From a virus: a stretch of DNA of 64,000 nt. Both the position numbers and the translations under genes were made by a program. The notes under the pieces are model-generated. The model searched no databases and was not told where the DNA came from. It saw nothing but the letters and a program-made list of their open reading frames with translations. Location of the stretch: IMG/VR virus record IMGVR_UViG_3300017746_000003, positions 37,915 through 101,914 of that record; one strand, given 5' to 3'. Positions 42,501 to 56,283 of this stretch are shown in pieces; positions within the stretch are counted from its first letter, which is position 1; each line of letters opens with the position of its first letter.

Positions 42501-45500
42501 ACTTACTGATTCTGGTAAGATCTCGGAAGATCAGATTCCCCCTCTACGTCCTTTCCAAGTATTTACGGTTGCAAACCAATCAGAAAGAGTTGCTATTGAA
42601 GGAGCACTTGCTGGTGATATTGCAATTCAACAGGATACTAACTCTTCATTCATTTTAAACAATGATAATGATAGTTTGTTTGTATCGTTCCCAATTGATT
42701 CCACTCTTCAATTCACCATTGGTGACATCTTTACTGGCAGTAATTCTGGCGGTAAAATTCAATCAACTGAATATAGAGAAGGTGTTGTTTATCAAATCAG
42801 TATTACTGATAATGGTTCTGGTTATGTTACTCCCCCTGTTGTAACTATCTCTGGTGGTAATCCTCAAGCAGGTGCTGTTTCAGCATTTGCTACTTGTTCG
42901 ATTGCAAATGGTCAAGTTGTCCTGGTCGAGATTCAACTATTCAATAACTATATTGGTGGTAAAGGATACACTACTGCTCCTACAGTTACGTTCTCTCCTC
43001 CAGCAGGTTCTGGAACGCAAGCAGCTGGTGCTGCTATAATTGAGTCCAGACTCTATGGTGATATCGTCAACAATATCAAGATAGAAGATACAGATGATAT
43101 CGAATCTAGTGATATTCCTGCCGAGACTATTGCTATTACCCGTGTTATTAATACTTCTGCGAGTGATAGTAATAACTGGGTATCTCTATCTTCCAATCAA
43201 ATTGCTGCTAATGACATTACATCTGGTGTTATTTCTACCGCAAGATTAGCATTTACTTCAGATGCTGCAAACTCCTTCACATTCCTTAGAGGAGATCAGT
43301 CATATAATCCTGTTATTCAATCACTCAAGGGTGCTGAGACTAGATATTTTGCTAAGATTACTTCACAAGCAAACAGCAGTTCTTCGCAATTAGTTTTTGC
43401 TACTAATTCAGATGTACTTCTTGGTCATGAAGTTGTAGCAAACATTAATGGTATTCAACCTAATACTAATATCTCTGGTATTCTTACTGCTGCTGGAACA
43501 ACCACAGTCTCAATTGATAATCCACTAACAGCTACAATTCCAGTCAACACAGTTATTGAATTTGAGCGTGGTTCATCTCCACTAACATTTGAATCATCAC
43601 TTACTCAAGGAGACTTTATTGAATCCGTTGTTATTGCAGCGGGTGGATCTGGATTTACTGATGGTCAATTCTTTGATGTAGAACTAGATGGTGGATCTGG
43701 TACAGGACTCAAAGCAAATATTATTGTAAGTGGTGGTACAGTTTCAGATCTAACACTTACTTCTACTGGTGTTGGATTCCTAAATGACTTCACAGTCACT
43801 TCTGCTCCAGCAGCTATTGGTTCTGGTACTGGTTTAGTTCTACTTGCAAAACTCAGTACAGTCAATAAGCAATTTGCAAACGTTGCTGTTGATATCTCTA
43901 GAGTTTCTGATCTAACTATTTCTGCTGACGAATACGGAACAATTGGTGTTGCTAGATTCTATAAAGATCAATTTAAAATTGGTCTTGCTGGTAATGGTTC
44001 TATTCAACTTAAGACTGGAGCAGACTCTGGTCTTGATGCTGACCTTCTCGATGGTGTTCAAGGATCTTTCTACCTTAACGCAGGTAATCTAAACGCAGGT
44101 GTTCTGCCCGTTGATAGATTATCTGGTACTTATAATATTAATATTGCTAACCAGTCTGGTAGTACATTAAGACTCAAGTCTTCTACAAGTAACCCAGCAT
44201 CGAATCCAAACCCTGATTCGTTTAACGTTGGTATAATTGCAGATACTAGAAATAATGCTGCTGATGGTCTAGCAGATGGTGGCACACGTCACGTTACAAT
44301 GACTATCAGGAATGGTGGATCTGGATTTGATGCAACATTCGGTGGTGTAAGACAACTTGCATTCACTGATAATGATAATATGTATCTTAGAGGTTCTGGT
44401 TCTACCCTAGCAACCTTTAGTACATGGGCAAAGATCTGGTCTTCCCAGAATGATGGCATCAACTCTGGACTTGATGCTGATAAACTTGATAGTCGTCAAG
44501 GAACTTTCTATCAAAATGCTATCAATACAAATGAAGGCACATTCAGTGATCTTAGAATGCCTTCTCACCAAACACAGAAGGACTTCCAAGATAGAGTTAG
44601 AATTCTTGATTGGACAGGTCAACCAAGATTTAAAATTCTTGTTAGAGATGAACTATTAACGGCATCTCCATTCTTAGTTGGTTTGCCAGTTAACTTGTAT
44701 GATGCTCAAGGTCTTGCTCCTGGTCGTATTTCAATTACTGATATTGCCATCAACCAAGATGCCAATGATCCTTCTAATAATTTCACTCTAATTACAGGTA
44801 CACTAACAACAGGTAACTTTATTGGAGCGATTGCAATTGGTGATACCGCAATCAACTATCCTTTCCAAGATTTTAGTATTGCGGACCTAGACGCTAATGC
44901 AGATGGACTACCCGATGGTACATTTGAAGTTGGAGGACTAGAAAGTAGTGGTGGTAATGCCAGATTGAAACTTGGTAGAAACGATGGTATCTCTGCTTCA
45001 GATCCTTCCGTCTACTTCAGATCTTCTCTCAACCCATCAACTAACTATAGTTCTGCAATTATTGCTACTGGTGGTAATTCCACCGATGGTTCTGGTTCTC
45101 TGGAATTTAAAGTATCAGATGTAAATCAGTTAACTCTATTAGGCAACATTATTTGGAATGAAGGTAATGTAGTATTCAACTCCTCTAATGTATTATCAAC
45201 AACATCACTGAAGTCTGCTGTAATGAGAGACACTAGTGGAGACTTTAGTGCTGGAACAATCACTGCTTCTCTAACTGGTGCTGCTTCACTTAACGTTCTT
45301 AAGGCAGGCGATACAATGTCAGGTCTGCTCTCCATCTCTGGAGTAGCGGTAGGACAGCAAGCATTGAGCGTATCTGGCAGAGGAGATTTCCTAAGCAATA
45401 TTACAGTTGCTGCTGACCTAACAGTCAACACGGACACATTGCACGTTGATGCTATAGATGATACAGTAAGCATTGGCACAACTACTTCTGATTCTGCAGT

Positions 45501-46527
45501 AAAACTTCTGATTGTAGAAGATGGCGATCAAGATGTTGTCCTGAGAATGTATTCAACTCCTAATAGTGGAACACAATATGACTCAAGACTTGAACTTCTT
45601 GGACAGAGTGGCACTCTAGATGAGGGTCTCCAACTCATGTATGACAACTCTGTTGGTGACGTGTACTTCAAGCAACTATACAATTCTCTAACAACAGAAG
45701 TTGCAATACATTTCAGCACTGGTGCATTTACTGACGCTCTAACGATTACTGGTAACGGCAATCTGGGTGTACAGATGACTGCCAGTGATGCATATGAGTT
45801 GGATGTAAATGGATCTTCAAGATTCAAGACTGCTCTTAGCGTTGGTCGTGCAGATAGCAATGCTGGTGCTCCTGCAATTTTCGCAGGCGCAACTGGTGGA
45901 TCTAATGGAGCAGGTGGTTATCTAAGTAACTTCCGTGTTGGTAACCAACTTCTACAAGCAGATACTTTTGAAATCACACCTAGTGATGGAACGCAGGGTG
46001 CTCTAACTTGGAAATCTACTCCAGCACTTGCTATCCAAGGTTCCGAGAACCGAGTTGCAATCAATACTCTTCAGTTTGGTGGTACTGATACTACAGTATC
46101 TCCACAGGTTCAAAGAGAATATCAACTGAACATCCAAGGCGATATCAACATCAATGGTCTGGTCTTCCAGAACAACGCTGAGTTCGTTACTTCCAGATGG
46201 ACAGAATCTGATAATGAACTGGATATCTACAGAGAGTCTAAGGTCTGGATTAACCCAGATTCAAGTGTTGCTGGATTTACTGGCAACCCCGACTATGATC
46301 TACAACTTGGTGGAGGTGGCAATGATGGTCACTTCGGACTACATGGTGTAATGTACATTAGAGATACCCCTCAGTGGATTGATACTACTGGCATCATCAA
46401 AAACTCCGCTAACACATTGTCAGAAAATGTAATTATTCCCGCAAATGCTAATGCAATGTCCATTGGTCCAATTACAATTCAACCAGGCATCACAGTAGAT
46501 GTCGTAGGTAACTGGGTAATTATGTGA
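36520..46527 (+). CDS. Giant modular tail-fibre protein, 3335 aa
   Basis: Likely long tail fibre or baseplate fibre. Modules in order: GTGY/GKGY beta units (residues 65-120); a pectate-lyase-like opening (IGSDLNDGRSAVAPVRTIKKAA, about 300-365); four YPRPG-type repeats (782-1108); four short HxF...KH units (about 1110-1195); a duplicated KCRRD helical domain (K1292 and K1459); LPTQKAVKDYI near 1970; two SGLDADxLD fibre units (about 2503 and 2648); and a C-terminal IIPANANAMSIGPITI...NWVIM cap. It replaces T4 gp10-gp12 or long fibres positionally. It probably contacts the cyanobacterial surface. Confidence 0.75.
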   Translation: MSFQLNSDRETIRAIAPTLIGSQELSIRAGSGSDEKEVLRTLLDPGTDLPRVGINRTGNRIDRVVVNLGGTGYTIQPTVNIEPPPAGGTQAVGSAIIDEGFVTAVLIDNPGKGYITAPAVTISGGNGTGAQVEAFLDTVDFELDINGAIRTSTSIISDTARILNLDIDNFITPDAKFRAPDLKTYMNNTGIPWTAQTIVQKDAYRYRGPNVYQALNAGETGTVPPLHKDGIETNNEVQFKHIGFRVTDPSAFQYNETGESGEFPRSITPLLGDRSTKIATTEYVLNLATNDVGGRIYVSAQIGSDLNDGRSAVAPVRTIKKAAQLAWSTPGVKETLIVSGGDYVEDNPISLPPDASVVGDNLRLVIIRPANPRKHIFKFGDKNYVIGVTYRDQVDSTGDAVATWDFAMVFDDKQRINYDYTANGDFGTSFPIGTQIFGPEKFRADFQTNTGLSNLTSNLAVKGINTGAEGIINEVNFGSIVGPQAYISGKLDFSVTSGAFTAGETFLFGGTGSIKWTPNTPYTIGQLLWATDNVYQVAVAGTSAASSPIHTTGTVATGPDTLELTFLRDAYEFVSTDIRSIRAEGEVVFEETDITDALPLVRIDFSKQGTAEVSTGGFQDPNVVEDNGGIIFYTNALVGRQNTHDFKEGQEIFIEGMPTSSPDLSFLNGKQRIYKVLEDADGRSRRFVIPKKTTITTTDNFDPGQFSSVRAYGKSITISLLNSPNRFPMATPVARRFQDACLQIRNNVEFIADEVVGKVNDQFKKEYYSVYEIGGTPDSTLTPTDVDYDPATGIATFTVTSHGLSIGDGVRITDNSITQTCAMDGYKTEHTSPNSHHYSSGKTLPIRSSGFTTDQFELFVGISGPDQQYTPTDVTYDPATGNVNLTIGAHTLSVGEGIVIDDNSLSFTCDMDGDQSVKSYPRPGIDPFASRSIPITEISATSITINGGISGPNKYFQPSAVNYNAATGDMTVTVGQHGLGVGRNVVLADNSFTFTCDQNGYATEHTYPRPGQDPQAGKSIAITDVGTNSLTVSGATYTASSGQVDITTSAPHGMQEGDYILFEDNSLTFTCNLDGNVVSKNYPRPGYDYPSGRWFPISNISASGFRVNIGPSSYTGVHAFVSATNNGLKHQDGTFTINVGNAGSASGSNHQFVNATAQAIKHEPQSVHTFTGSTSNSVKHLPQSAHTFVRSAPNALSIGGSTLKIYLGTSTFVHTYVSGGVVTYNSQNYNITNFVYDNISTGEATITLASPVAALSEDATIRISDLVVECVVDGVTTQKTYPSFSIPVNDNKCRRDVGHFISAITRDLEFGSNYNVIDAAKKYIDGTNTQIDFVNTEIIQTVRALEYARELITFAMRKWRTGTGAPGQAIYVPQYSQLDRYFDPTIIDDISTPACANVASAIDTLAYLFIDVLANDTSGTYLDGAYLIARNRDLIADEAYKLAMIQYPSLGLGNIDERKCRRDINLITGAIIRDLSLGGNAGIVNAAELYFTGSALTGIPASELAPTRFAFEKARDLCIAAMRNWTDASGAAVTTPNSDIPQFTDSSILVDPTGVPLCANVEASITTAFQLLDDILSGTTSPGATVRDTGTLFDTSTIATFPDSIIYDSKGTKLTPRSDFADNPIIEASPYTQNASVISFLGGGGAEVDGDKVKQPNCPFPGLELDGTASFPNQGKSMVASAFTIVSFGGTGYKITNDGYVQLVSVFVIFCADGVLAESGGYCSITNSATNFGIFALRGIGFRKDAYEFDVGLISNVSSTPTGRTIFTVSGLGREPLEHYIVKIDGFSNVDPDIEYFIDTVEGVTVGPPFTAQLTLESGSGGGAALKNDATDNAVSVGTLVGETVRLHRPSIVNSSSHTWEFAGSGTNYNALPENGGTKIEAYEQVSENYGRVYVSGTDELGDFKVGTFARIENRTGNITFTGTVTISEVEFLKLKGGDVVVTGFDASNTLGGANTTNSKLPTQKAVKDYITNNLGPYLNKPYSTNPVPRALVELTDSGKISEDQIPPLRPFQVFTVANQSERVAIEGALAGDIAIQQDTNSSFILNNDNDSLFVSFPIDSTLQFTIGDIFTGSNSGGKIQSTEYREGVVYQISITDNGSGYVTPPVVTISGGNPQAGAVSAFATCSIANGQVVLVEIQLFNNYIGGKGYTTAPTVTFSPPAGSGTQAAGAAIIESRLYGDIVNNIKIEDTDDIESSDIPAETIAITRVINTSASDSNNWVSLSSNQIAANDITSGVISTARLAFTSDAANSFTFLRGDQSYNPVIQSLKGAETRYFAKITSQANSSSSQLVFATNSDVLLGHEVVANINGIQPNTNISGILTAAGTTTVSIDNPLTATIPVNTVIEFERGSSPLTFESSLTQGDFIESVVIAAGGSGFTDGQFFDVELDGGSGTGLKANIIVSGGTVSDLTLTSTGVGFLNDFTVTSAPAAIGSGTGLVLLAKLSTVNKQFANVAVDISRVSDLTISADEYGTIGVARFYKDQFKIGLAGNGSIQLKTGADSGLDADLLDGVQGSFYLNAGNLNAGVLPVDRLSGTYNINIANQSGSTLRLKSSTSNPASNPNPDSFNVGIIADTRNNAADGLADGGTRHVTMTIRNGGSGFDATFGGVRQLAFTDNDNMYLRGSGSTLATFSTWAKIWSSQNDGINSGLDADKLDSRQGTFYQNAINTNEGTFSDLRMPSHQTQKDFQDRVRILDWTGQPRFKILVRDELLTASPFLVGLPVNLYDAQGLAPGRISITDIAINQDANDPSNNFTLITGTLTTGNFIGAIAIGDTAINYPFQDFSIADLDANADGLPDGTFEVGGLESSGGNARLKLGRNDGISASDPSVYFRSSLNPSTNYSSAIIATGGNSTDGSGSLEFKVSDVNQLTLLGNIIWNEGNVVFNSSNVLSTTSLKSAVMRDTSGDFSAGTITASLTGAASLNVLKAGDTMSGLLSISGVAVGQQALSVSGRGDFLSNITVAADLTVNTDTLHVDAIDDTVSIGTTTSDSAVKLLIVEDGDQDVVLRMYSTPNSGTQYDSRLELLGQSGTLDEGLQLMYDNSVGDVYFKQLYNSLTTEVAIHFSTGAFTDALTITGNGNLGVQMTASDAYELDVNGSSRFKTALSVGRADSNAGAPAIFAGATGGSNGAGGYLSNFRVGNQLLQADTFEITPSDGTQGALTWKSTPALAIQGSENRVAINTLQFGGTDTTVSPQVQREYQLNIQGDININGLVFQNNAEFVTSRWTESDNELDIYRESKVWINPDSSVAGFTGNPDYDLQLGGGGNDGHFGLHGVMYIRDTPQWIDTTGIIKNSANTLSENVIIPANANAMSIGPITIQPGITVDVVGNWVIM
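38863..39843 (+). repeat. Four tandem YPRPG-type repeats
   Basis: Units start at residues 782, 870, 957 and 1032 (88, 87 and 75 aa apart). Shared pattern: Y-x2-A-T-G, HGLxxGxxVxxxDNSxxFTCxxDG, then YPRPGxDP and a Ser/Ile strand. The first unit has HTSPN in place of the YPRPG core. Confidence 0.85.
39850..40110 (+). repeat. Short HxFxxxxxNxxKH repeats
   Basis: Four encoded units: HAFVSATNNGLKH, HQFVNATAQAIKH, HTFTGSTSNSVKH and HTFVRSAPNALSI, each about 20 residues. They form a His-rich segment directly after the YPRPG repeats. Confidence 0.75.
40393..41330 (+). repeat. Duplicated KCRRD helical domain
   Basis: KCRRDVGHFISAITRDL (K1292) and KCRRDINLITGAIIRDL (K1459) lie 167 residues apart. The 15-base core AAGTGTCGTAGAGAT is identical in both copies. 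Each copy continues with similar helices ending in a CANV segment (ACANVASAIDTL and LCANVEASITTA). Confidence 0.8.
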
Positions 46528-46566: not shown

Positions 46567-47625
46567 ATGTCTAGTCTAAACGTAGGAACTGTAACTCTGT
46601 CTAACGGACTGACACTTCCTTCATATACATCAAGTCCAGATAACAGACCATCACATAGTGCTGGTAGGACTATCTATGATTCGACTTCGGATACTATTCA
46701 GATATCTGATGGATCACAATGGATTAGTGCGGGTTCTGCGGGTAGTGGTTTGATTACTGCTACTGGCGGTGAAGTTACATTCTCTGGTGGATATAAAGTT
46801 CACACATGGTACAATGTAGGAGAGTATAATTTTAATGTAACGGGAGCTGCTGGTGGTGCTACTGCCGAAGTTCTTGTGGTAGCAGGCGGTGGTGCTGGTG
46901 GAACTATTGGTGGCGGTGGCGGTGGCGGTGGCGTTTGCTACCATGGAACTTACCCAATCTCAACTGGTTCTTATGATGTAAAAGTTGGAGCAGGCGGATC
47001 TACACCTTTGTCTGGTTATCCTGTTGCTAAAGGTCAATCTGGAGGTAATTCTGAGTTTGGAACACATACCGCATTTGGCGGAGGTGCTGCTGGATCATGG
47101 GGACCTAATGCTAGAGAAACTGGAGAACCAGGAGGTTCTGGCGGTGGTGCATCTGGTCCTGCTCCCAGACAACCACAAAGAGGAGAAGCAACCAAAGGTA
47201 GTGCTCCTGGTGGCGGTGTTACTCATGGAAATCCTGGTTATAGAAACGGCAATAATACTTCTGGAACACACTCTGGTACTCATACTGGCGGTGGTGGCGG
47301 CGGTGCTAACCCCAACAATACAGTTAATGGAAGAGTCGGTGGTGATGGCATCACCTACATGGGTCTAACTGTTGGTGGTGGTGGCGGTGGTGGAACCCAC
47401 GAAAACTATGGTACTGCTCCAATCACAACTCCTGCTGCTCCTGGTGGCGGTGGTCGTGGTGGATCTAGATCATCGCAATATGCAGGTGGCGGTGGACAAG
47501 GTTGGGGCGAACCAGGACAAGTTAACACTGGTGGCGGCGGAGGCGGCGGCTGGTATAATGGTACTGGTAATGGTCAAGGTGCTGCTGGTGGTCCTGGCAT
47601 CGTTCGTGTTCGTCATACAATCTAA
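46567..47625 (+). CDS. Glycine-rich adhesin-like protein 1, 352 aa
   Basis: The N-terminal 60 residues (VGTVTLSNGLTLPSYTSSPD, GSQWISAG) resemble the attachment domain of cyanophage fibre proteins and of the 51539 paralogue. The rest is about half Gly in runs such as GGGGGGGG and GGGGGGANPN, with short variable loops. Polyglycine-sandwich domains of this kind form the receptor-binding tip of some myovirus fibres (gp38-type adhesins). Probably presented on the tail fibre to bind the host surface. No catalytic motif. Confidence 0.75.
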   Translation: MSSLNVGTVTLSNGLTLPSYTSSPDNRPSHSAGRTIYDSTSDTIQISDGSQWISAGSAGSGLITATGGEVTFSGGYKVHTWYNVGEYNFNVTGAAGGATAEVLVVAGGGAGGTIGGGGGGGGVCYHGTYPISTGSYDVKVGAGGSTPLSGYPVAKGQSGGNSEFGTHTAFGGGAAGSWGPNARETGEPGGSGGGASGPAPRQPQRGEATKGSAPGGGVTHGNPGYRNGNNTSGTHSGTHTGGGGGGANPNNTVNGRVGGDGITYMGLTVGGGGGGGTHENYGTAPITTPAAPGGGGRGGSRSSQYAGGGGQGWGEPGQVNTGGGGGGGWYNGTGNGQGAAGGPGIVRVRHTI

Positions 47626-47628
47626 TAT

Positions 47629-48126
47629 ATGTTTTACAATGTAGAGGAAAATTTCCTCAATAGTGAAGAGTTTGAACAACTAACTAAACAAACAATAAAC
47701 AATCCTTATTTCCCGTTGTATTTGAAGAACCGAGTAGCGTCGGCGTCTTCAAACGACGGGATTTATTTTACCCACAATTTTTTCTTTGCTGGCGAGGTAT
47801 GTAGTGATTACTACGATCATCTTTCTCCTATTATAGAAAAAATTAAAACTAAAAAATTTCTAAGAATTCAATTAAATTTATTTCCCAAAACTACTGAGAT
47901 CGTGCGCCACGACTGGCATACAGATATGCTTTGGGATCATAGAGGTTGTATAGTCTACCTAAATACTAATGATGGGTCAACGTTATTAAAAGAAGATGAT
48001 GAGAATGCTATAAGCATTCGTTCTATATCAAACAGAGCATTATTTTTCAATCCAGCAAAACCTCATTGTAGTACAACATGTACTGATTCTGAATTCAGAA
48101 GCAATATTATTTTTAATTATGAGTGA
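47629..48126 (+). CDS. 2OG-Fe(II) oxygenase-like protein A, 165 aa
   Basis: Short dioxygenase-fold protein. Iron ligands H97-T-D99 (DWHTDML) and H146 (AKPHCSTTC), with R157 (EFRSNII) as the 2OG-binding residue. The DxxGCIVYLNTNDGST segment is the jelly-roll core strand typical of phage members. It is the first gene of the modification cassette, three bases after adhesin 1. Probable hydroxylase; substrate unknown. Confidence 0.75.
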   Translation: MFYNVEENFLNSEEFEQLTKQTINNPYFPLYLKNRVASASSNDGIYFTHNFFFAGEVCSDYYDHLSPIIEKIKTKKFLRIQLNLFPKTTEIVRHDWHTDMLWDHRGCIVYLNTNDGSTLLKEDDENAISIRSISNRALFFNPAKPHCSTTCTDSEFRSNIIFNYE

Positions 48127-48790
48127 ATTATATAATGTTTTTTCTATACCCGTATGGAAAACAAAAATAACTAAAAATGATTATGACAAAGATCTCATTC
48201 TCAATGAGATGCTGTACAATTTTAATGTAGATCCCAAAAGAAATACTTGGGATAAGGTAATGCCAACTACCATGAAAAGTAACTGGCACCATTCCAATAA
48301 TGACGAGGCAGACGAAAAATTTAAATCTATCAGTTACAAAGACTCTGGATTGACTTCTGTTATAGACTCAAAGGTTAGAGAATTTGTTTCTCACCTTGGA
48401 TTAAATTCCAGCATCAATTATTTTTTTCAAATAACTAATTATACAGTATCTACAGAAGGTTACTTCCTCACCAGTCATGGTCATGGTTGTGACTCTTTTA
48501 GTTCTGTGTTATTTGTGCAATTTGATAAACTTAATCACCCCTCTACATATTTTAATAATCCGTTTAGTTCATCAGATCAAACTAGATGGTTACAGAAAGA
48601 CCTATATGATTCGTTTGATAACAAAAATTCATTTTTTAGTTACATGCAAGATACATGGTCAATTGATACTGACGAAGATGATTACATGATTTTTCCAGGA
48701 CATGTCAAACACGAAGTTCCTACTGTAGGAAAATCAAACAAAGAACGAGTAACTATTTCATGCAATATTAAGGTGTACAAAAATGTCTAA
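48119..48790 (+). CDS. 2OG-Fe(II) oxygenase-like protein B, 223 aa
   Basis: Follows the layout of putative phage 2OG oxygenases that begin with a short IPVWKTKI segment. Candidate metal residues are H120-G-H122 (SHGHGCDSF), a variant of the usual HxD, and H195/H198 (PGHVKHEV), with R210 (KERVTISCNI). The missing Asp of the HxD motif is odd and may change the metal or the activity. Eight-base overlap with the upstream gene and eight-base overlap with the halogenase gene. Confidence 0.65.
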   Translation: MSELYNVFSIPVWKTKITKNDYDKDLILNEMLYNFNVDPKRNTWDKVMPTTMKSNWHHSNNDEADEKFKSISYKDSGLTSVIDSKVREFVSHLGLNSSINYFFQITNYTVSTEGYFLTSHGHGCDSFSSVLFVQFDKLNHPSTYFNNPFSSSDQTRWLQKDLYDSFDNKNSFFSYMQDTWSIDTDEDDYMIFPGHVKHEVPTVGKSNKERVTISCNIKVYKNV

Positions 48791-50339
48791 TGAAATTAAT
48801 TCAATTACTATAGTTGGTGGCGGTAGTGCTGGATGGATGTCTGCCGCTACAATGATTAGGTTTTTTCCAGACAGAAAAATTACTATCATAGAAAGTCCAG
48901 ACTACCCAATCGTAGGAGTTGGTGAAAGTACACTAGGACATATCAATCAGTGGTTAGATCTGCTAGGAATTCATGAAGATGATTTTATGAAGGAGTGTGA
49001 TGCTTCTTACAAATTAAGTATTAAATTTACAGACTTTTATGCAAAAGGAGATGGTGGTTATCATTACCCATTTGGACCACCAATGTTGGATGGAACTGAA
49101 CTTGGGTTTAATGATTGGCAAGTATTAAAACATTTTTCTCCTGGTATTCCTGTACAAGATTTTGCCAGATGTTATAATCCTATAACCCTTTTGGCAGAGC
49201 AAAATAAAATTGATAAAAATGAGAGTGGTCACTTAGATAATTTTAATTTTGCAAAAGATGCTGCATATCACTTTGATGCTGTTAAATTTGGACAATGGTT
49301 GAAAAAAAATTATTGCCTTCCTAAAGGTGTAGAACTTATTTCATCTTCTGTAAAGAATGCTATCGTAGGTGCAGATGGAGTAGAATCATTAATTCTCGAA
49401 GATGGTACAGAGCATTCTGCTGACATGTATCTTGATTGCACAGGATTTAAAAGTATGCTGTTAGCAGGTGCTTTAAATGAGGAGTTTGTTTCTTATAGAG
49501 ATGTTGTTCCTAACAACAGAGCATGGGCAACTAGATTACCTTATACAGATAAAGAAAAACAATTAGAACCATTTACTAATGGAACTGCTTTATCATCTGG
49601 TTGGGTATGGAATATTCCTTTGTGGAGTAGAATTGGAACAGGTTATGTGTATAGTGATGATCACATCACACCAGAGGATGCGTTAAAAGAATTCCAAGAA
49701 CACATAGGAAGAGATGATCTTGAGTTTAGAGATATCAAAATGCGTATTGGAATTCACAAAAATGTGTGGAGTAAAAATGTAGTTGGTATTGGTCTAGCAG
49801 GAGGTTTTATTGAACCTTTAGAAAGCAATGGATTATTTACTGTACATGAGTTTCTACTCAAACTAACAAAATCTATTTCCAAACCTTTTGTAAACCAATT
49901 AGATAGAGACATTTTTAACATGTCTGTCCGTGATATATTTGATACATTTGCTACTTTTGTAGGTCTTCACTATAGACTTAGTTCTAGAAACGATAGTCCT
50001 TATTGGAGAGATATTACAGAGAGATCTAATCTATGCGAAGAAATTTTAAAAATTCCCCAAATGCAAACAGATTTTAGACATCTAGCAGTAGCAAAAATGA
50101 TTGATGATAAATTCTGTAACGGAGGACAACCTTATATTGCTACAGGTATGCATTATCCAATTGCAGATGAATCAACAATTTGTGCATGGGGATATCATAA
50201 TGAGGTAAACTATAAAAAAATAGCACAGGAATCTGCGTTACGATTCTCTAGAAGAAAACATTTATGGCAATGTGTGGCGGACATTGCTCCAACATTGTAT
50301 GCACATTTGGCAGATAAATATGAATATGAGGTAAATTAA
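48783..50339 (+). CDS. Flavin-dependent tryptophan-type halogenase, 518 aa
   Basis: Member of the FADH2-dependent halogenase family, which adds Cl, Br or I to electron-rich substrates. The FAD-binding GGGSAGW lies near residue 12. The catalytic Lys is at K77 (SYKLSIKF, PrnA K79 equivalent), the signature W274-V-W-N-I-P279 is complete, and the Glu/Ser pair is at E347-S348 (EPLESNG, PrnA E346 equivalent). A related viral enzyme, VirX1 of cyanophage Syn10, is known to iodinate small molecules (from memory). A separate flavin reductase, needed for activity, is not seen here and may come from the host. Likely functional; substrate unknown. Confidence 0.9.
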   Translation: MSNEINSITIVGGGSAGWMSAATMIRFFPDRKITIIESPDYPIVGVGESTLGHINQWLDLLGIHEDDFMKECDASYKLSIKFTDFYAKGDGGYHYPFGPPMLDGTELGFNDWQVLKHFSPGIPVQDFARCYNPITLLAEQNKIDKNESGHLDNFNFAKDAAYHFDAVKFGQWLKKNYCLPKGVELISSSVKNAIVGADGVESLILEDGTEHSADMYLDCTGFKSMLLAGALNEEFVSYRDVVPNNRAWATRLPYTDKEKQLEPFTNGTALSSGWVWNIPLWSRIGTGYVYSDDHITPEDALKEFQEHIGRDDLEFRDIKMRIGIHKNVWSKNVVGIGLAGGFIEPLESNGLFTVHEFLLKLTKSISKPFVNQLDRDIFNMSVRDIFDTFATFVGLHYRLSSRNDSPYWRDITERSNLCEEILKIPQMQTDFRHLAVAKMIDDKFCNGGQPYIATGMHYPIADESTICAWGYHNEVNYKKIAQESALRFSRRKHLWQCVADIAPTLYAHLADKYEYEVN

Positions 50340-50341
50340 TT

Positions 50342-50938
50342 ATGGCATATGAAGCGATGTGGTATCAATCACATTTACCAGATGAGTTAATTGATCCATT
50401 GGTATCAACTTTAGAACAATCTGATAATTTTATTGATTCGGAAACTAAAGGTGGATTAGCATTAGCAGTTAGAGATAGTTCAAACCAATGGATTCCTGAT
50501 ACTCATTGGATTTGTGGATTGTTATGGCATTATGTTACTCTGGCAAACGATAGTAATTTTGGTTATGACATTAAAGAATTTGATCATAATTCAATACAAT
50601 ATACTAGATACAAAACTGGTCAATATTATGGATGGCATAAAGATGACGGAGTGGGAAGTATAATTTCTCCTGATCCTAAGCACCCAGTTGAATCTTTTAT
50701 TGATAGAAATACTAAACAGATTAGAAAATTGTCTGTAGTTGTCCAGTTATCTTCACATGAAGATTACACTGGCGGAGAATTTCAAATGCTAGAAGATCAA
50801 AATAAAACTTTTTTTGCACCAAAAACAAAAGGAACTATTATTATTTTTGATAGTAGACTTCCTCATAGAGCTAAAAAAGTATTGTCTGGTGAAAGACGAT
50901 CTTTAGTTGCTTGGGTAACTGGACCCCAGTGGAGATGA
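50342..50938 (+). CDS. PKHD-type 2OG-Fe(II) hydroxylase, 198 aa
   Basis: Close to the PKHD-type (prolyl-4-hydroxylase-like) family. Core residues are H99-K-D101 (GWHKDDG), H175 (LPHRAKKV) and R185/R186 (GERRSLVAW). The segments RKLSVVVQLSSHEDYTGGEFQ and KGTIIIFDSRLPH are typical. Enzymes of this family hydroxylate proline or other residues in proteins. It follows the halogenase after a two-base gap and overlaps the next gene. Confidence 0.85.
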   Translation: MAYEAMWYQSHLPDELIDPLVSTLEQSDNFIDSETKGGLALAVRDSSNQWIPDTHWICGLLWHYVTLANDSNFGYDIKEFDHNSIQYTRYKTGQYYGWHKDDGVGSIISPDPKHPVESFIDRNTKQIRKLSVVVQLSSHEDYTGGEFQMLEDQNKTFFAPKTKGTIIIFDSRLPHRAKKVLSGERRSLVAWVTGPQWR

Positions 50939-51519
50939 GTATGAATTGGAATGATTGGTCTGTTATTGTAGTAAAAAATATTATAAATCCTGTATTTTTA
51001 TTTGAACCTGTTCCTTGGGAACGAGGACAATATAGTTATGAGTCCAAGGGAAATGTTATTCATGTTCCTGATGAAGGACAAGTTAGTGGTAGTTTGTCTA
51101 GATATAATCACCCAAAATTTAGGCAATTGCATTTTGATGTAAAATCTAAAATAGAAAATGTAATTAATGATCCTCTGTATCCAACATACTTTTATGATAG
51201 ATTTTATTTTAAAAAACAACTACTAGAAAAACATGTGGATAGACCTGCATGTGAAGTAAGCATCTCTATTAATTGCTCGCATAATTTAGATTATGACTGG
51301 CCAATATGGTTTACAACTCCAGATGGAGATGATATCCCGTTGATTACAAATCCTGGCGATGGGGTAATTTACAAAGGATGTGAACGACCTCATTGGAGAG
51401 AACCAATGGAAGGAAATTCAGAATCATACTATCATCAAATGTTCATGCACTACGTGCGTAGAGATGGTCCTCATCTAGAACATGCACATGATAGATGTAA
51501 TACTATAAATAGAGTATAG
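50935..51519 (+). CDS. 2OG-Fe(II) oxygenase-like protein C, 194 aa
   Basis: The ATG at 50935 is preferred because of its ATGA overlap with the upstream stop; the frame also opens at 50911. Putative ligands are H100-V-D102 (EKHVDRPACEVS) and H153 (RPHWREP), with R155 nearby. The NPGDGVIYKGCERPHW region is characteristic of this superfamily. Completes the four oxygenase-like proteins flanking the halogenase. Substrate unknown. Confidence 0.7.
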   Translation: MSMNWNDWSVIVVKNIINPVFLFEPVPWERGQYSYESKGNVIHVPDEGQVSGSLSRYNHPKFRQLHFDVKSKIENVINDPLYPTYFYDRFYFKKQLLEKHVDRPACEVSISINCSHNLDYDWPIWFTTPDGDDIPLITNPGDGVIYKGCERPHWREPMEGNSESYYHQMFMHYVRRDGPHLEHAHDRCNTINRV

Positions 51520-51538
51520 CAAAAAGTCTTGACAGAAC

Positions 51539-52753
51539 ATGTCCGAAATTAATGTTGGTGATTTAAACGTATCTACCGAATTTAACTTACCCCTTTATAA
51601 TAGTTCTAACAGACCCGTGAATCCTGCTACAGGATTCATGATATTTAATACTACCGAAAATAAATTGCAGGTATGGACTGGATCTCAATGGAAGAGTTTT
51701 GGTCAACAAAATTATGATATTAGTGCAACTGGCAGCGTAGTTACTAACGATTTAACTGGTGACTATAACGGATACAGAGTTCATAGGTTTACTGGGGATG
51801 GAACTATAACAGTCAACCAAAGTAATCAAGATGGTGGTGTAGAATTTCTACTAATCGCTGGGGGAGGCGGTGGTGGTGGCGTCATCGGCGGTGGTGGTGG
51901 TGCTGGTGGTGTAATCTATAGAAGAGAACTTTATCTAGCACCAGGTACTTATAATATTTCCATTGGTGGTGGTGGCGCAGGAGGAACTGGATGGAATAGT
52001 CCACAGCAAGAAGGTCGCGCAGGGACTCCATCTGTATTTACCGATAATGCTGGATTTAGTTATGAAGCAGTAGGCGGTGGTGGAGGTTGTGGTCATGGCG
52101 GTGCTACACCAAATAGAATTGCTGGTCAAGGTGGTTCTGGTGGTGGTTCTGCTAATATCTCTAGAAGAGGTGGCAATGCAATTGGTAAAAACTTCGGACC
52201 TCAAGCAACAGATAAAGCACATGATATCAGATCTGTGTACTTGAGTAGTAACGATGCTATGGCTGATGGTGATGCACTTGGTAGAAGTGCTCAAAGTTGG
52301 GATGCCATCGAAACATCAACTAATGAACACCAAGGAGTTCAAGGAAACGCTGGTGGTATCTGGGGTGATGGAGACGCTGGCGCTGGTGGTGGTGGATTTG
52401 GCACTAATGGTGGCAATGGTGGTGCTCCCAGAGATACTGGTGGCGAAGGTGGGCACGGAGGATACTTTGATATCAGTGGATCAATGGTTGGTTATGCTGG
52501 CGGTGGTGGTGGCGGTGTCCGAGGCACAGGTCGCCGTCGTGGCACAAAAGCAGGTGACTATGGTGGAGGAGATGGAGGCAGGGCAACTGGTGCCCCCGTC
52601 AATTTTGGTAGTCCCTCACCTAACAATGCTGAAGCTGGCGCAACTAATCGCGGTGGCGGTGGCGGTGGCGGCGGTTATAACGCCCCACGTGGCGGTGCTG
52701 TAGGTGCTCCAGGTGGATCTGGAGTTTGTATTATTCGATATAGGAAATCATAA
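51539..52753 (+). CDS. Glycine-rich adhesin-like protein 2, 404 aa
   Basis: Paralogue of the 46567 product. The N-terminal 55 residues match it (INVGDLNVSTEF, NRPVNPATG, TGSQWKSFG), followed by an RVHRFTGDG strand and a polyglycine tip with long Gly runs. Loops between the Gly runs differ strongly from adhesin 1, as expected for receptor-binding surfaces. It closes the modification cassette and is followed three bases later by 52756. Confidence 0.75.
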   Translation: MSEINVGDLNVSTEFNLPLYNSSNRPVNPATGFMIFNTTENKLQVWTGSQWKSFGQQNYDISATGSVVTNDLTGDYNGYRVHRFTGDGTITVNQSNQDGGVEFLLIAGGGGGGGVIGGGGGAGGVIYRRELYLAPGTYNISIGGGGAGGTGWNSPQQEGRAGTPSVFTDNAGFSYEAVGGGGGCGHGGATPNRIAGQGGSGGGSANISRRGGNAIGKNFGPQATDKAHDIRSVYLSSNDAMADGDALGRSAQSWDAIETSTNEHQGVQGNAGGIWGDGDAGAGGGGFGTNGGNGGAPRDTGGEGGHGGYFDISGSMVGYAGGGGGGVRGTGRRRGTKAGDYGGGDGGRATGAPVNFGSPSPNNAEAGATNRGGGGGGGGYNAPRGGAVGAPGGSGVCIIRYRKS

Positions 52754-52755
52754 AA

Positions 52756-53079
52756 ATGGCATTAGATTTAACGTACATGGCTTCACTATCTGAAGCACAA
52801 AGAGAAGTTTTTGTAACACTTATCAATGATATTGAAAGTGAAGAACCTTTTGGTCCTGGTGTAACTTCTGATTGGGTTGACGAGATGAGAGAAAAACTCA
52901 GACTATCTGCTCCACGTCAAGAAGATATTGACAAATGCGAAACTTTGAAAAAAATTGCTCCAAGCGATTTAACTTACTCTATTAATAGACTTGCTGATAG
53001 TCAGGGATTACCTGTTATTAGTATTATAGGTAACTCTTTGGAATTGGATAAAATTTTCTGTTCTGAAAAAGAAAACTAA
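52756..53079 (+). CDS. Hypothetical protein, 107 aa
   Basis: N-terminal helical segment (LSEAQREVFVTLINDIESEE), a Pro/Gly turn, then further helices. No domain recognised. It is placed directly behind adhesin 2 and may be a structural or chaperone protein. A late promoter overlaps its stop codon. Confidence 0.6.
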   Translation: MALDLTYMASLSEAQREVFVTLINDIESEEPFGPGVTSDWVDEMREKLRLSAPRQEDIDKCETLKKIAPSDLTYSINRLADSQGLPVISIIGNSLELDKIFCSEKEN

Positions 53080-53082
53080 ATA
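53075..53082 (+). promoter_or_regulatory. Late promoter
   Basis: ACTAAATA overlaps the stop codon at 53077-53079 and lies 29 bases before the ATG at 53111. Confidence 0.6.
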
Positions 53083-53110
53083 GTAAAGTACATCATTTTA
53101 TATTACTACA

Positions 53111-53296
53111 ATGGACACTGAACAACTGAGAAAGAATTTTGATGAGCAAATCGCTAGTACAGATAAGCAAATTTCTGAACTAGAAGCAAACCTTGCTAAA
53201 GCAAAAGAATACAAATTGAAACTAATTGGTGGTATTGAAACTCTAGATTTGCTCAACCCCAAAGAGGAAACTCCTTCCGAAGAAGAATCTGAGTAA
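53111..53296 (+). CDS. Small coiled-coil protein, 61 aa
   Basis: Almost entirely heptad-patterned helix in the first 40 residues (NFDEQIASTDKQISELEANL), then an acidic disordered tail. I recall short coiled-coil proteins of this type before the neck genes in cyanophages. It could serve neck or fibre attachment. No catalytic features. Confidence 0.65.
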   Translation: MDTEQLRKNFDEQIASTDKQISELEANLAKAKEYKLKLIGGIETLDLLNPKEETPSEEESE

Positions 53297-53300
53297 CACA

Positions 53301-53335
53301 AATCCCTGCTTCCTAAATAGAAGTAGGGATTTTTT
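53301..53335 (+). terminator. Terminator with a late promoter in its loop
   Basis: A 12-base stem (53301-53312 / 53320-53331, one G-T pair) closes on the seven-base loop CTAAATA and is followed by a T-run. The loop is itself a late promoter word, 29 bases before gp13. Termination of upstream transcripts and initiation for the neck operon appear combined in one site. Confidence 0.75.
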
Positions 53336-53347
53336 GTATCTAGGTGC

Positions 53348-54178
53348 ATGGCTACACCAACAACTAAAGCAGAACTAATTGCATATTGTGAACGCCAATT
53401 AGGTGCGCCTGTCCTGCAAATCAATATGGATGCCACCCAAAAGGATGACATCATAGATCAGGCGTTGCAATATTATCACGAATACCATTTTGATGGTGTC
53501 GAAAGGATGTATCTAAAGCATCAGTTTACTGCTGCAGAGGTAACTCGTTTCACTGAAACTAATGCTGCATCCACGTCACCTGATGGAACTGGGTGGGAGA
53601 ACAGGAGTAACTACATTGAAGTTCCTGAACTTGTTATAGGTATTCAAAAAGTTTTTGGAGTCTCTTCAAATTTCTTGAGGAATAACCTTTTTGGTATGAG
53701 CAATCAATACTATTTGATGGACCTGTTTTCTTTCTCATCAGGTTCGGCATTTAGTTTTGGTAATTTTGACTTAACAAATTACTATATGATTAAACAGCAC
53801 TTTGAAACTATTGATATGGTTATCAATACAGGTGCGTTTGTTGAGTATAGATTTAATAAAAGACAAGATAGATTATATGTAGATATTGATAAATCTAGAA
53901 TTATAGAAGATCAATATTTACTTATTGATTGCTATAGATACCTGGATCCAGATGTACATACTCAAGTTTATAATGATAGTTTTGTAAAGAGATATGCTAC
54001 TGCTCTCATGAAGAGGCAGTGGGGTCAAAACTTGATTAAATATAACAACGTTTCACTTCCTGGTGGCATTAATCTTAATGGTCGCCAACTATGGGAAGAC
54101 GGAAACAGAGAAGTTCGTGAGTTGGAATCTAGAATGATGATAGATTATTCACTCCCACCAATGGATATGATCGGATAA
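53348..54178 (+). CDS. gp13: Neck protein gp13
   Basis: Gp13 forms the neck that seals the head after packaging. Opens with TTKAELIAYCERQLGAPVLQI, the family's conserved N-terminus, and has DDIIDQALQYYHEYHFDG near residues 37-55. Length 276 aa (T4 309). The start is the ATG behind the combined terminator and promoter. Followed after one base by gp14. Confidence 0.9.
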   Translation: MATPTTKAELIAYCERQLGAPVLQINMDATQKDDIIDQALQYYHEYHFDGVERMYLKHQFTAAEVTRFTETNAASTSPDGTGWENRSNYIEVPELVIGIQKVFGVSSNFLRNNLFGMSNQYYLMDLFSFSSGSAFSFGNFDLTNYYMIKQHFETIDMVINTGAFVEYRFNKRQDRLYVDIDKSRIIEDQYLLIDCYRYLDPDVHTQVYNDSFVKRYATALMKRQWGQNLIKYNNVSLPGGINLNGRQLWEDGNREVRELESRMMIDYSLPPMDMIG

Positions 54179-54179
54179 A

Positions 54180-55064
54180 ATGCCTACCAGTTCCTATTTC
54201 CCAAGTTACTACGGCGGTACTAGTGGCGAGCAAGGTCTCGTCCAAGATCTTGTGGACGAACAAATTAAATTGTTCGGCACGGATATCTACTACATGCCTA
54301 GAACTATTCTTAGAGATAATACTCTAGATGATATTATCTACAACAAATATACAGAGCAGTTTCAAATTGAAATGATGCTGCAGAATGTAGAAGGTTTTGG
54401 GTCTCCATCAGAATTTATCAGTAAATTTGGACTTCGTATTACAGACGAAGTTAGATTTTCTGTGTCACAAAGAAGATGGGATGAAGAAGTAACTGAACAT
54501 AATCCAACATTAACTGTTGATGGAAGACCCAATGAAGGAGATCTTCTTTATTTTCCACTGACTAAAGATCTCTATGAAATTAAATTTGTAGAAAGAGAAG
54601 ATCCTTTTTATCAGTTAGGTAAGGTCTACTACTATACAATGACTGCTGAAATCTATGAGTATGGTAGTGATGACATCTCTACAGGAGTTGCAGAGATTGA
54701 TGTAATTGAGACTCTGTTTAGTAATTCTATTGCTCTCACTATGGCAGTCGGTGGTACTGGAGACTTTACCATCGGTGAAGCAGTTACAGGATCAACCACA
54801 GGCACAGAAGCAGAAGTAAAATCTTGGGATGCTGGCACAAGAGTTTTACAAGTCATCAACAGAACTGGTACATTTGCTACTGGTGAAGCTATGACTGGGA
54901 ATGACAGCGGTGCTGTTCATGTAGTCGGAACGTTTGACACTCTAAATAATACCAACAGCGAATATGATCAAAATAGAGTCATTGAAACTGCTGCTGATGA
55001 CATAATTGATTGGACTGAGGGCAACCCTTTCGGTGAATCAGGTAACTTTACAGGTAGTATCTAA
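54180..55064 (+). CDS. gp14: Neck protein gp14
   Basis: Completes the neck with gp13. Conserved N-terminus (YYGGTSGEQGLVQDLVDEQIK, IKLFGTDIYYMPR). It is 294 aa, against 256 in T4, and the excess is a module at about residues 188-255 (FTIGEAVTGSTTGTEA, then GTFATGEAMTGNDSGA) that also occurs in gp8, gp7 and the DUF4815 protein. The stop overlaps the gp15 start as TAATG. Confidence 0.9.
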   Translation: MPTSSYFPSYYGGTSGEQGLVQDLVDEQIKLFGTDIYYMPRTILRDNTLDDIIYNKYTEQFQIEMMLQNVEGFGSPSEFISKFGLRITDEVRFSVSQRRWDEEVTEHNPTLTVDGRPNEGDLLYFPLTKDLYEIKFVEREDPFYQLGKVYYYTMTAEIYEYGSDDISTGVAEIDVIETLFSNSIALTMAVGGTGDFTIGEAVTGSTTGTEAEVKSWDAGTRVLQVINRTGTFATGEAMTGNDSGAVHVVGTFDTLNNTNSEYDQNRVIETAADDIIDWTEGNPFGESGNFTGSI

Positions 55065-55867
55065 TGTTTGGGTCACATTTTTACAACGAAATTATTCGTA
55101 GAAATATTGTTGGGTTTGGAACCCTATTCAATAACATTTCTTTGAAGAAAGTTGATCCTACTGATGGAACTACTGTTCTTGAGGAAGAAAAAGTTCCTCT
55201 GGCATATGGTCCTAAGCAGAAATTTTTGACACGTCTAGAACAAAATCCAGATGTTGATAGAAAAATTGCTATCACACTACCACGTCTTTATTTTGAAATG
55301 ACTGGTATTGATTATGACGCCGCTCGTAAAACATCTCCTATTCAAAAATATAGAACCATCATTCAAAATGATGGCACAGAAGTAAAGGAACAATATGTTC
55401 CTGTTCCTTATAACATTGATTTTGAACTTGGTATTATTGCGAAGTCTCAAGATGACGGACTTCAGATTCTTGAGCAAATTTTACCATACTTTCAACCATC
55501 ATTTAATATTACTATTAACATGATCCCAGACATGGATGAGAAAAAAGATGTTGCTATTACATTAAACAATGTCAGTTATGAGGATGAATGGGATGACAAT
55601 TTTCTTGAGCGCAGATATATCACATGGATTTTATCGTTTACTGCTAAGTCTTACATCTACGGACCATTTGATCAAACAAGTGTTATTAAGAAAGCAATTG
55701 TATATGAAGGACTTGGAACTTCTGTACCAAATAGAACTACAAAAGTTACTTACACACCTAGAGCACTGGAAGATAAGAACAGCGATGGAAACATCGATGC
55801 TCTGGATGATGCACTACTAACATCTTCAGATGACTTTGGATTTAATGAAGGCATTGAACTACTATGA
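55064..55867 (+). CDS. gp15: Tail sheath stabiliser gp15
   Basis: Gp15 caps the tail and joins it to the neck. FGSHFYNEIIRRNIVGFGTLFN at the start and PYNIDFELGIIAKSQDDGLQI near residues 119-139 are typical. Length 267 aa (T4 272). Overlaps gp14 and gp16, so the neck-terminase genes are coupled. High confidence from position and sequence together. Confidence 0.9.
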   Translation: MFGSHFYNEIIRRNIVGFGTLFNNISLKKVDPTDGTTVLEEEKVPLAYGPKQKFLTRLEQNPDVDRKIAITLPRLYFEMTGIDYDAARKTSPIQKYRTIIQNDGTEVKEQYVPVPYNIDFELGIIAKSQDDGLQILEQILPYFQPSFNITINMIPDMDEKKDVAITLNNVSYEDEWDDNFLERRYITWILSFTAKSYIYGPFDQTSVIKKAIVYEGLGTSVPNRTTKVTYTPRALEDKNSDGNIDALDDALLTSSDDFGFNEGIELL

Positions 55868-56283
55868 GCAAACTTGAGGATAATATGGAAGATCTATTTG
55901 ACATTGAAATTGAATCTACTGCTATCGAACCATCTAAACCAGTACCACCAACATCAGATAAAGACGACCAGACAAAAGATTACGAATATACCAGAGGGTC
56001 TTTGTACTCGCTCATAGACAAGGGCAGAGAGGCGCTAGACGGGGCGTTAGAGGTTGCTCAGGAGTCAGGGCACCCTAGAGCGTATGAAGTCGCTGTGAAC
56101 GCCATGAAGCAGGTAGCAGACGCTACTGATAAACTTCTAGATCTACAGAAGAAGATGAAAGATCTAGAAGCACCCACAAAGAACTCTGTCAATAACAAGA
56201 CCACAAACAATTTATTTGTTGGTAGCACAGCAGACCTACAGAAAATGCTCAAGCAAATAAATAAACAAGAAGAGTCGGAATAA
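55864..56283 (+). CDS. gp16: Small terminase subunit gp16
   Basis: Small terminase for DNA recognition and regulation of gp17. A 139-aa protein (T4 164) with an acidic N-terminus, then the conserved RGSLYSLIDKGREALDGAL region and a coiled helix (VADATDKLLDLQKKMKDLE). ATGA overlap with gp15. Three small genes separate it from gp17, unlike T4, where the two are adjacent. Confidence 0.85.
   Translation: MSKLEDNMEDLFDIEIESTAIEPSKPVPPTSDKDDQTKDYEYTRGSLYSLIDKGREALDGALEVAQESGHPRAYEVAVNAMKQVADATDKLLDLQKKMKDLEAPTKNSVNNKTTNNLFVGSTADLQKMLKQINKQEESE

Follow-up and report, generated by a model that had tools for sequence, protein, structure and literature searches.

The locus described here raised the question of whether a viral gene resembling a tryptophan halogenase still encodes a working enzyme and, if so, what this enzyme would act on. 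The gene was located at positions 48783-50339 (+ strand) of a 64,000-nucleotide stretch of viral DNA (hereafter, the window), which sits in a virus record of 101,914 bp, itself a fragment.

The halogenase gene and its viral relatives

The open reading frame (ORF) ran from ATG to stop without an internal stop and encoded a protein of 518 amino acids; stops were present throughout the opposite strand in the one frame that was read. The protein matched the Pfam family PF04820 (Trp_halogenase) with an E-value of 2.3e-101 (340 bits, for a cut-off of 21) and PHROG 2928, “tryptophan halogenase”, with an E-value of 2e-143, and its assignment as a flavin-dependent halogenase (FDH) also took into account the AlphaFold2 model and the match to VirX1 described below. 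The original prediction of an intact viral FDH was upheld by the open frame, the two family matches and the motifs, all of which were in place. The nearest isolate relative, the halogenase of Sf-CH11 and Sf-CH1a, annotated as a tryptophan 7-halogenase, was likewise intact and 85.9% identical over its whole length. Positions 47600-55900 of the window shared 81% DNA identity with Sf-CH11, which had the same gene order and, in contrast to the window, an extra halogenase linked to talC.

Such enzymes had been regarded as rare in viruses, which proved wrong for marine T4-like phages. A tblastn search of 50,697 phage records detected relatives in 77, most of which (66) bore the name Synechococcus, Prochlorococcus or cyanophage; IMG/VR contributed at least 585 stretches. 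Among the 77 records, 41 covered at least 80% of the query, and the identity was 86% in two and below 60% in the other 75. In the accessible text of earlier studies, prnA already figured among cyanophage genes in 2010 (PMC3037559, PMC2984593), and a tryptophan halogenase was reported in 20 of 153 cyanophages (PMC10452541). Hence, the protein is a further cyanophage halogenase within an already known viral family. Genome contigs yielded 44 relatives (two peptide patterns), the best isolate being Nonlabens xiamenensis (45%) and one MAG match, of phage or cellular origin, reaching 50%.

In a maximum-likelihood tree of 47 halogenases, the window protein was placed in a clade of 34 rows with a support of 100/100; besides the window protein and VirX1, this clade contained another 15 proteins from isolates and 17 from IMG/VR. 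The tree has long branches, that of S-MbCM6 inside the clade among them, and the S-PM2 copy, which was absent from the tree, was classed outside the clade by its 28% identity. VirX1, the known enzyme named in the original prediction, was an apt comparator, since CPUG_00131 of phage Syn10 corresponded to VirX1 over all 530 residues. It shares the motifs and the clade of the window protein, although it lies in a sister sub-branch and is only 38% identical, so its substrate and halide do not transfer to the window protein.

Active site and predicted structure

In FDH chemistry, reduced FAD, O2 and a halide give HOX, which a Lys/Glu pair directs to an aromatic ring. Every residue originally named for this chemistry was found at its position on the + strand of the window. 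GGGSAGW (residues 12-18, positions 48816-48836) is a dinucleotide (FAD) binding motif that fits GxGxxG, and K77 (49011-49013), the equivalent of PrnA K79, is the catalytic lysine and was conserved in the alignments. W274, W276 and P279 belong to WVWNIP (WxWxIP motif, residues 274-279, 49602-49619), and the catalytic E347 lies within EPLE (344-347) of FIEPLESNG (residues 342-350, 49806-49832). The latter also contains the tunnel motif F..P..S.G, reported for active FDHs in the part of the source consulted (PMC8407142).

The conservation of these residues was analyzed in two sets. The first was formed by the window protein and 53 IMG/VR relatives, obtained from 67 tested loci after removing five with a stop in the matched range and nine duplicates (13 of 80 loci were left out as partial or apparent repeats). 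K77 was conserved in 54/54 of these proteins and E347 in 50/54, the others having Gln (three) or Asn (one). In the second set, an isolate alignment of 30 rows, the catalytic Lys was present in all of the rows and the catalytic Glu in the 17 clade rows, the window among them; Gln replaced it in 6 of the 13 rows outside the clade. The exact F..P..S.G motif was found in 13/17 clade rows versus 2/13 outside, with Gly or Ala in place of its Ser in the clade rows S-B64, P-RSM6_a, S-WAM1 and S-SZBM1. All four copies located about 2 kb from talC (Syn1, S-RIM44, Sf-CH11 and Sf-FP1) carried Gln. Since the clade member of S-MbCM6, 4.9 kb from talC, retained Glu, the Gln pattern was taken to hold only up to about 2 kb from this gene.

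An AlphaFold2 model of the halogenase was built from a 51-sequence alignment, with a mean pLDDT of 91.6 and a pTM of 0.90. Its top match in Foldseek was VirX1 (6QGM; E 3e-51, TM 0.93), and the superposition of both with VIA-align gave Z 47.9 and an rmsd of 1.7 Å over 506 residues at 38% identity. The same program gave Z 47.6 for PrnA (482 residues) and 47.4 for SttH (468 residues), both at 2.3-2.4 Å, followed by AbeH and RebH (Z 46.5-46.6). Therefore, PrnA and SttH tie with VirX1 on Z, whereas in the model both superpose less closely and over fewer residues. The comparison with VirX1 and PrnA had been proposed together with the original prediction; given a confident model that matches both, the overall halogenase fold is predicted not to be collapsed, VirX1 being the best match. 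A phmmer search against solved structures also placed VirX1 first (E 2e-108). PrnA, RebH, PyrH and Thal share the fold and the catalytic Lys/Glu with the window protein at 27-30% identity in the structural alignment. The fold is also shared, at Z 37.4 and 25% identity, by MibH (PDB 5UAO), a lanthipeptide tryptophan 5-halogenase that belongs to a peptide natural product pathway. The substrate of MibH is a Trp inside a peptide.

Degenerate relatives do exist, such as the S-PM2 copy, with an early stop, the split second copy of Sf-FP1 and the copies outside the clade with Gln for Glu, so it was also considered that the gene might encode an inactive halogenase, either decaying or repurposed. This explanation was judged very improbable for the window copy, which has all of the motifs and an open frame, a confident model and a closest isolate relative that is intact at 86% identity. 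From the sequence and the model, the gene probably encodes a working VirX1-type (variant A) FDH of a T4-like marine cyanophage.

The original prediction had also noted the lack of a dedicated flavin reductase, and this observation was extended to 13/13 records: no reductase of the families PF01613, PF00175 and PF03358 was found in 12 isolate phages and the record of the window (a fragment). Of 14 control genomes, 10 to 13 gave a positive result in the same searches. Because no reductase of these three families was found, the host would supply FADH2. In the proposed mechanism, which follows the reaction established for the family, a host reductase would produce FADH2; at the flavin site, formed by GGGSAGW, this would react with O2, and the resulting flavin hydroperoxide would oxidize the halide to HOX. 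This would travel along a tunnel lined by the F..P..S.G loop, to be held by K77 and E347 and aimed at an electron-rich aromatic ring.

Gene neighborhood and its conservation

In the window, the halogenase gene is the third of five packed enzyme genes; each of the other four encodes a 2OG-Fe(II) oxygenase, either known or probable. The order, all on the + strand, was a Gly-rich gene, a gene for a 165-aa protein, a 2OG oxygenase, the halogenase, a second 2OG oxygenase, a gene for a 192-aa protein and a second Gly-rich gene. The first six were tightly spaced, adjacent genes either overlapping by 8 nt or being separated by 2-3 nt, and the halogenase may be co-expressed with its neighbors. Two small ORFs and homologues of genes 13, 14, 15 and 16 were found beyond the second Gly-rich gene. 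A terminator-like stem of 13 pairs preceded the gene 13 homologue (53300-53332, + strand); it came from a pattern scan only, in which six such sites were found versus 4.2 expected. Promoter-like sites were at chance level (24 versus 23.5 expected). The oxygenase cassette and the flanking Gly-rich fiber-like genes were absent from the original prediction.

Two of the oxygenases were recognized by Pfam. The 223-aa protein (48119-48790), whose gene runs 8 nt into the start of the halogenase gene, matched PF13759 (29.2 bits, for a cut-off of 27) and phrog_81, and the 198-aa protein (50342-50938) matched PF13640 (E 1e-13, 52.5 bits) and phrog_61. The 165-aa protein (47629-48126) matched phrog_274 (E 5e-37) and, below threshold, PF13640 (E 0.03). 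It is probably a 2OG-Fe(II) oxygenase, with an HxD within WHTD followed further on by H and R; the “DNA endonuclease V” label of its PHROG looks wrong, although it was rejected less firmly than the label of the 192-aa protein.

The latter protein (50941-51519, phrog_2954), whose start was placed at the ATG at 50941 (the listed ORF starts at a TTG, 50911), was predicted to adopt a 2OG-Fe(II) oxygenase fold. A profile search against PDB sequences gave no useful E-value (best 0.21). Its AlphaFold2 model (pLDDT 92.0) retrieved a Pseudomonas P4H first in Foldseek, and matched P3H1, prolyl hydroxylases, PHD2 and a chlorella virus collagen prolyl hydroxylase (Z 13.6-14.3, 8-13% identity). AlkB and small-molecule enzymes also appeared in the match lists and, since these include enzymes acting on small molecules and nucleic acids, the fold does not indicate a protein substrate. 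H98-x-D100 and H151 were invariant in 31/31 aligned sequences. The name “ferrochelatase”, which this protein bears both in PHROGs and in the record of Sf-CH11, looks wrong and was rejected in view of the modeled 2OG oxygenase fold.

The two Gly-rich proteins, 40% identical to each other, both matched PF21722. The first (46567-47625; 352 aa, 30% Gly) did so with an E-value of 7e-9 and also matched phrog_2295; the second (51539-52753; 404 aa) matched with an E-value of 5e-13 and was the only one listed by a six-frame search of the window's record. The Gly-rich profile retrieved no relative at E 0.01 among solved structures; hence, the term “fiber-like” is based on PHROG labels, some phage annotations and Gly content. 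One of these labels, phrog_863 (“tail fiber assembly”), was matched by the neighbor in Syn10 and, weakly, by the 51539-52753 protein. Aromatic positions were conserved among 22 Gly-rich proteins, e.g., Phe164 in 20/22 and Tyr125 in 14/22.

Halogenases, 2OG domains, Gly_rich_2, gene 13, psbA/psbD and talC were located by family searches in 20 isolate genomes. To this end, 21 of the 77 matching phage records were fetched, with P-SSM5, a near copy of P-SSM2, omitted from the distance table; the other 56 (near copies, Campylobacter phages, fecal and single-cell contigs, and 17 unlisted) lay outside the analysis. Distances were taken between match midpoints and rounded to 0.1 kb. With a limit of 3.1 kb, chosen after the distances were known, 14 of the 16 clade isolate proteins (10 of 12 genomes) were linked to a Gly-rich gene, versus none of the 13 isolate halogenases outside the clade. 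The Fisher p of 1.8e-6 for this comparison is not a true probability, because the genomes are related. The unlinked members were those of S-B64, 65 kb from its Gly-rich gene, and S-MbCM6, which had no Gly-rich match. A random site in the 10 linked genomes would be as close as 3.1 kb to a Gly-rich gene with a probability of 0.035-0.089, the midpoint of the pair being used where there were two halogenases. VirX1 itself lies beside Gly-rich genes and 2OG domains in Syn10, as in the window, although Syn10 differs in carrying a second halogenase in tandem.

The oxygenase link was weak, looser than the Gly-rich one. Counting the over-cut-off 2OG domains among the matches listed, with the same midpoints, a slight excess was observed within 8 kb of the halogenase in the 10 linked genomes (P 0.06-0.32 per genome). 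The density of 2OG genes was dropped as sole evidence, given that psbA and talC also have 2OG neighbors in several genomes.

This abundance of 2OG genes would also agree with an explanation in which the halogenase and the oxygenases are unrelated cargo in a variable stretch beside fiber-like genes, their linkage having no functional meaning. The gene 13 data argued otherwise. The distance from gene 13 to the halogenase was 4-7 kb in four linked genomes and 65-77 kb in the other six, so the Gly-rich gene and the halogenase occur together at two kinds of place; since the distance to gene 13 varies and that to the Gly-rich gene is small, the halogenase accompanies the Gly-rich genes irrespective of their position in the genome. 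Furthermore, the order Gly-rich gene, phrog_1787, halogenase was constant in the nine linked genomes tested (of 10), and the tight spacing in the window also speaks against mere cargo. The phrog_1787 protein had no Pfam match and is annotated in PHROGs as of unknown function; two oxygenase-like genes occupy its position in the window and Sf-CH11.

The neighbors in IMG/VR, examined in 62 distinct loci of 80 with a simple longest-ORF rule, were more mixed, including carbamoyltransferases, epimerases and a sigma factor, in agreement with the cargo explanation. The upstream ORFs (n = 55) comprised 22 matches to PF13759, six tail assembly chaperones, four PF13640, four further halogenases and two Gly_rich_2. 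Downstream (n = 57), 17 matched PF13640, 16 PF13759 (these may overlap) and 26 phrog_81. A Gly-rich ORF was present within four ORFs in 26/62 loci and not in the other 36, many loci being cut by a contig end; the figure was 15/40 for loci having four ORFs on both sides. Half of the neighboring ORFs of 440-620 aa (24/49) were further halogenases by Pfam, and a stricter motif rule detected a further halogenase in 14/62 loci. A scan with the talC-linked halogenase of Syn1 gave only four loci, too few to serve as a matched neighbor control. Taking all of these data together, the cargo explanation is considered possible, although doubtful.

Possible roles of the halogenase

The role assigned to these genes in the accessible literature is that of prnA as an ordinary auxiliary metabolic gene (PMC9964418, PMC9146016, PMC2984593). 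Its product would halogenate free tryptophan or a small metabolite, for instance for antibiotic-like protection. The fold shared with PrnA and RebH fits this role, as does the acceptance of many small molecules by VirX1, described in the text consulted (PMC8407142), and the clade member of S-MbCM6 lies 1.6 kb from psbA. Nevertheless, the 14 linked clade proteins are found by Gly-rich genes, 42-85 kb from psbA/psbD, and no genes of a halogenated-product pathway were detected among the ten window ORFs scanned, which differs from the setting of PrnA, RebH, PyrH and Thal in that no biosynthetic cluster was seen.

In 29 of the 31 rows, the phmmer alignments to solved halogenases stopped between residues 410 and 423 (the other two ended at 468, 9ltb, and 95, 8gu0), before the C-terminal substrate region, which was left unaligned in PrnA, RebH, PyrH and Thal. 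This is weak evidence against a metabolic role, because the VirX1 alignment also stops at 423. According to the available text on Thal, its residues 445-466 form a helical lid, which differs in VirX1, where the pocket is open (PMC7948982). Overall, a metabolic role remains a serious candidate, somewhat short of being probable.

The linkage of the clade to Gly-rich genes suggests that the halogenase may decorate part of the virus particle; its substrate would be tied to a virion protein or to virion assembly, rather than being free tryptophan. In a more specific form, proposed tentatively and judged rather unlikely, VirX1-type halogenases and 2OG oxygenases would halogenate and hydroxylate the Gly-rich adhesin-like protein or the phrog_1787 protein, thereby tuning attachment. 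A virion substrate was considered because of the Gly-rich linkage, downstream of large structural genes, together with the 2OG neighbors, and because relatives acting on peptides or proteins exist, such as MibH and QhpG. The latter, a peptidyl-tryptophan dihydroxylase with a halogenase-like fold, works on a protein substrate, as stated in the passages available (PMC7876137). It is a monooxygenase distant from the window halogenase, with a weak profile match at residues 181-412 (27.8 bits, for a cut-off of 240). A further reason was gp38, which forms the receptor-binding fiber tip of T2-type phages and contains glycine-rich motifs, as described in the accessible part of PMC12892980; against a likeness to gp38, the Gly-rich profile retrieved no solved relative at E 0.01, as noted above.

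Some observations count against a virion substrate. S-SZBM1 was described by microscopy as lacking long tail fibers, and S-WAM1, P-RSM6 and P-TIM40 were reported likewise in the portion of the article consulted (PMC9146016); these phages represent 4 of the 10 linked genomes. In the accessible part of the S-SZBM1 virion proteome, searched by name, the halogenase (S-SZBM1_46) and the Gly-rich proteins (S-SZBM1_48 and _49) were not found, trypsin being liable to miss Gly-rich proteins; the list does include the upstream proteins 51 to 54. The S-CREM1 virion proteome, as available, comprises 14 proteins (PMC9964418). Among the matches listed in open-licence PMC articles, no phage halogenase was linked to fiber or virion modification in the text seen.

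In cyanophages, no fewer than two kinds of gene go by the name “prnA”. One clade lies mostly beside Gly-rich fiber-like genes and has an intact active site, whereas the talC-linked copies (those of Syn1 and S-RIM44 and the second copies of Sf-CH11 and Sf-FP1), of the same Pfam family and 22-23% identical to the window protein, belong to another clade, occupy another genome place and carry Gln for the active-site Glu. Of these findings, the Gly-rich linkage with an intact active site, as opposed to the talC-linked copies, most deserves to be followed up. If true, a virion role would mean that a protein of the virus particle is halogenated enzymatically, and would give a native substrate to VirX1, which is described on unnatural substrates only in the sources as consulted. 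Outside the clade, the S-SRM01 copy was followed by one flanking gene and then a putative tail fiber, with a gene annotated as “adhesin tip complex” adjoining.

Genes next to the Gly-rich genes

In all nine phage genomes tested, a gene of the phrog_1787 family separated the Gly-rich gene from the halogenase (L083:9487-9981 in isolate genome L083, with an equivalent place in L084 and L087-L093), and its product is a candidate fiber chaperone or partner. In the window, a single ORF of 3335 aa (36520-46527) was found immediately upstream of the Gly-rich gene, and its counterpart in phage Sf-CH11 was annotated as a structural protein. Further giant ORFs were present at 11010-20771 and 23291-31513.

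Oxygenase-like neighbors with doubtful labels

The PHROG 2954 protein encoded at 50941-51519 (+) carries the label "ferrochelatase", which looks wrong, since its AlphaFold model adopted a 2OG-Fe(II) oxygenase fold. This label also occurs in phage annotations. The product of 47629-48126, a member of PHROG 274 ("DNA endonuclease V"), looks like a 2OG oxygenase on the basis of an HxD motif and a later His/Arg, and the endonuclease label matched neighbors of other halogenases as well. Additionally, halogenase genes were arranged in tandem (at least two in a row on the same strand) at loci L030, L080, L037, L038, L052, and L064, where they were adjoined by ORFs of 2OG-oxygenase size.

Divergent, interrupted and MAG-filed halogenase copies

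The motif EPLQ replaced EPLE in all four cyanophage halogenases lying about 2 kb from talC (L098, L103, L104, and L105); hence, these talC-linked copies may not be ordinary halogenases. The reading frame of the S-PM2 halogenase (L101) was interrupted by an early stop, whereas in Sf-FP1 (L105) the second halogenase copy was split between frames near its start. A halogenase 50% identical was carried by L209, a contig filed under a Deltaproteobacteria MAG, which may be phage DNA within the MAG bin.
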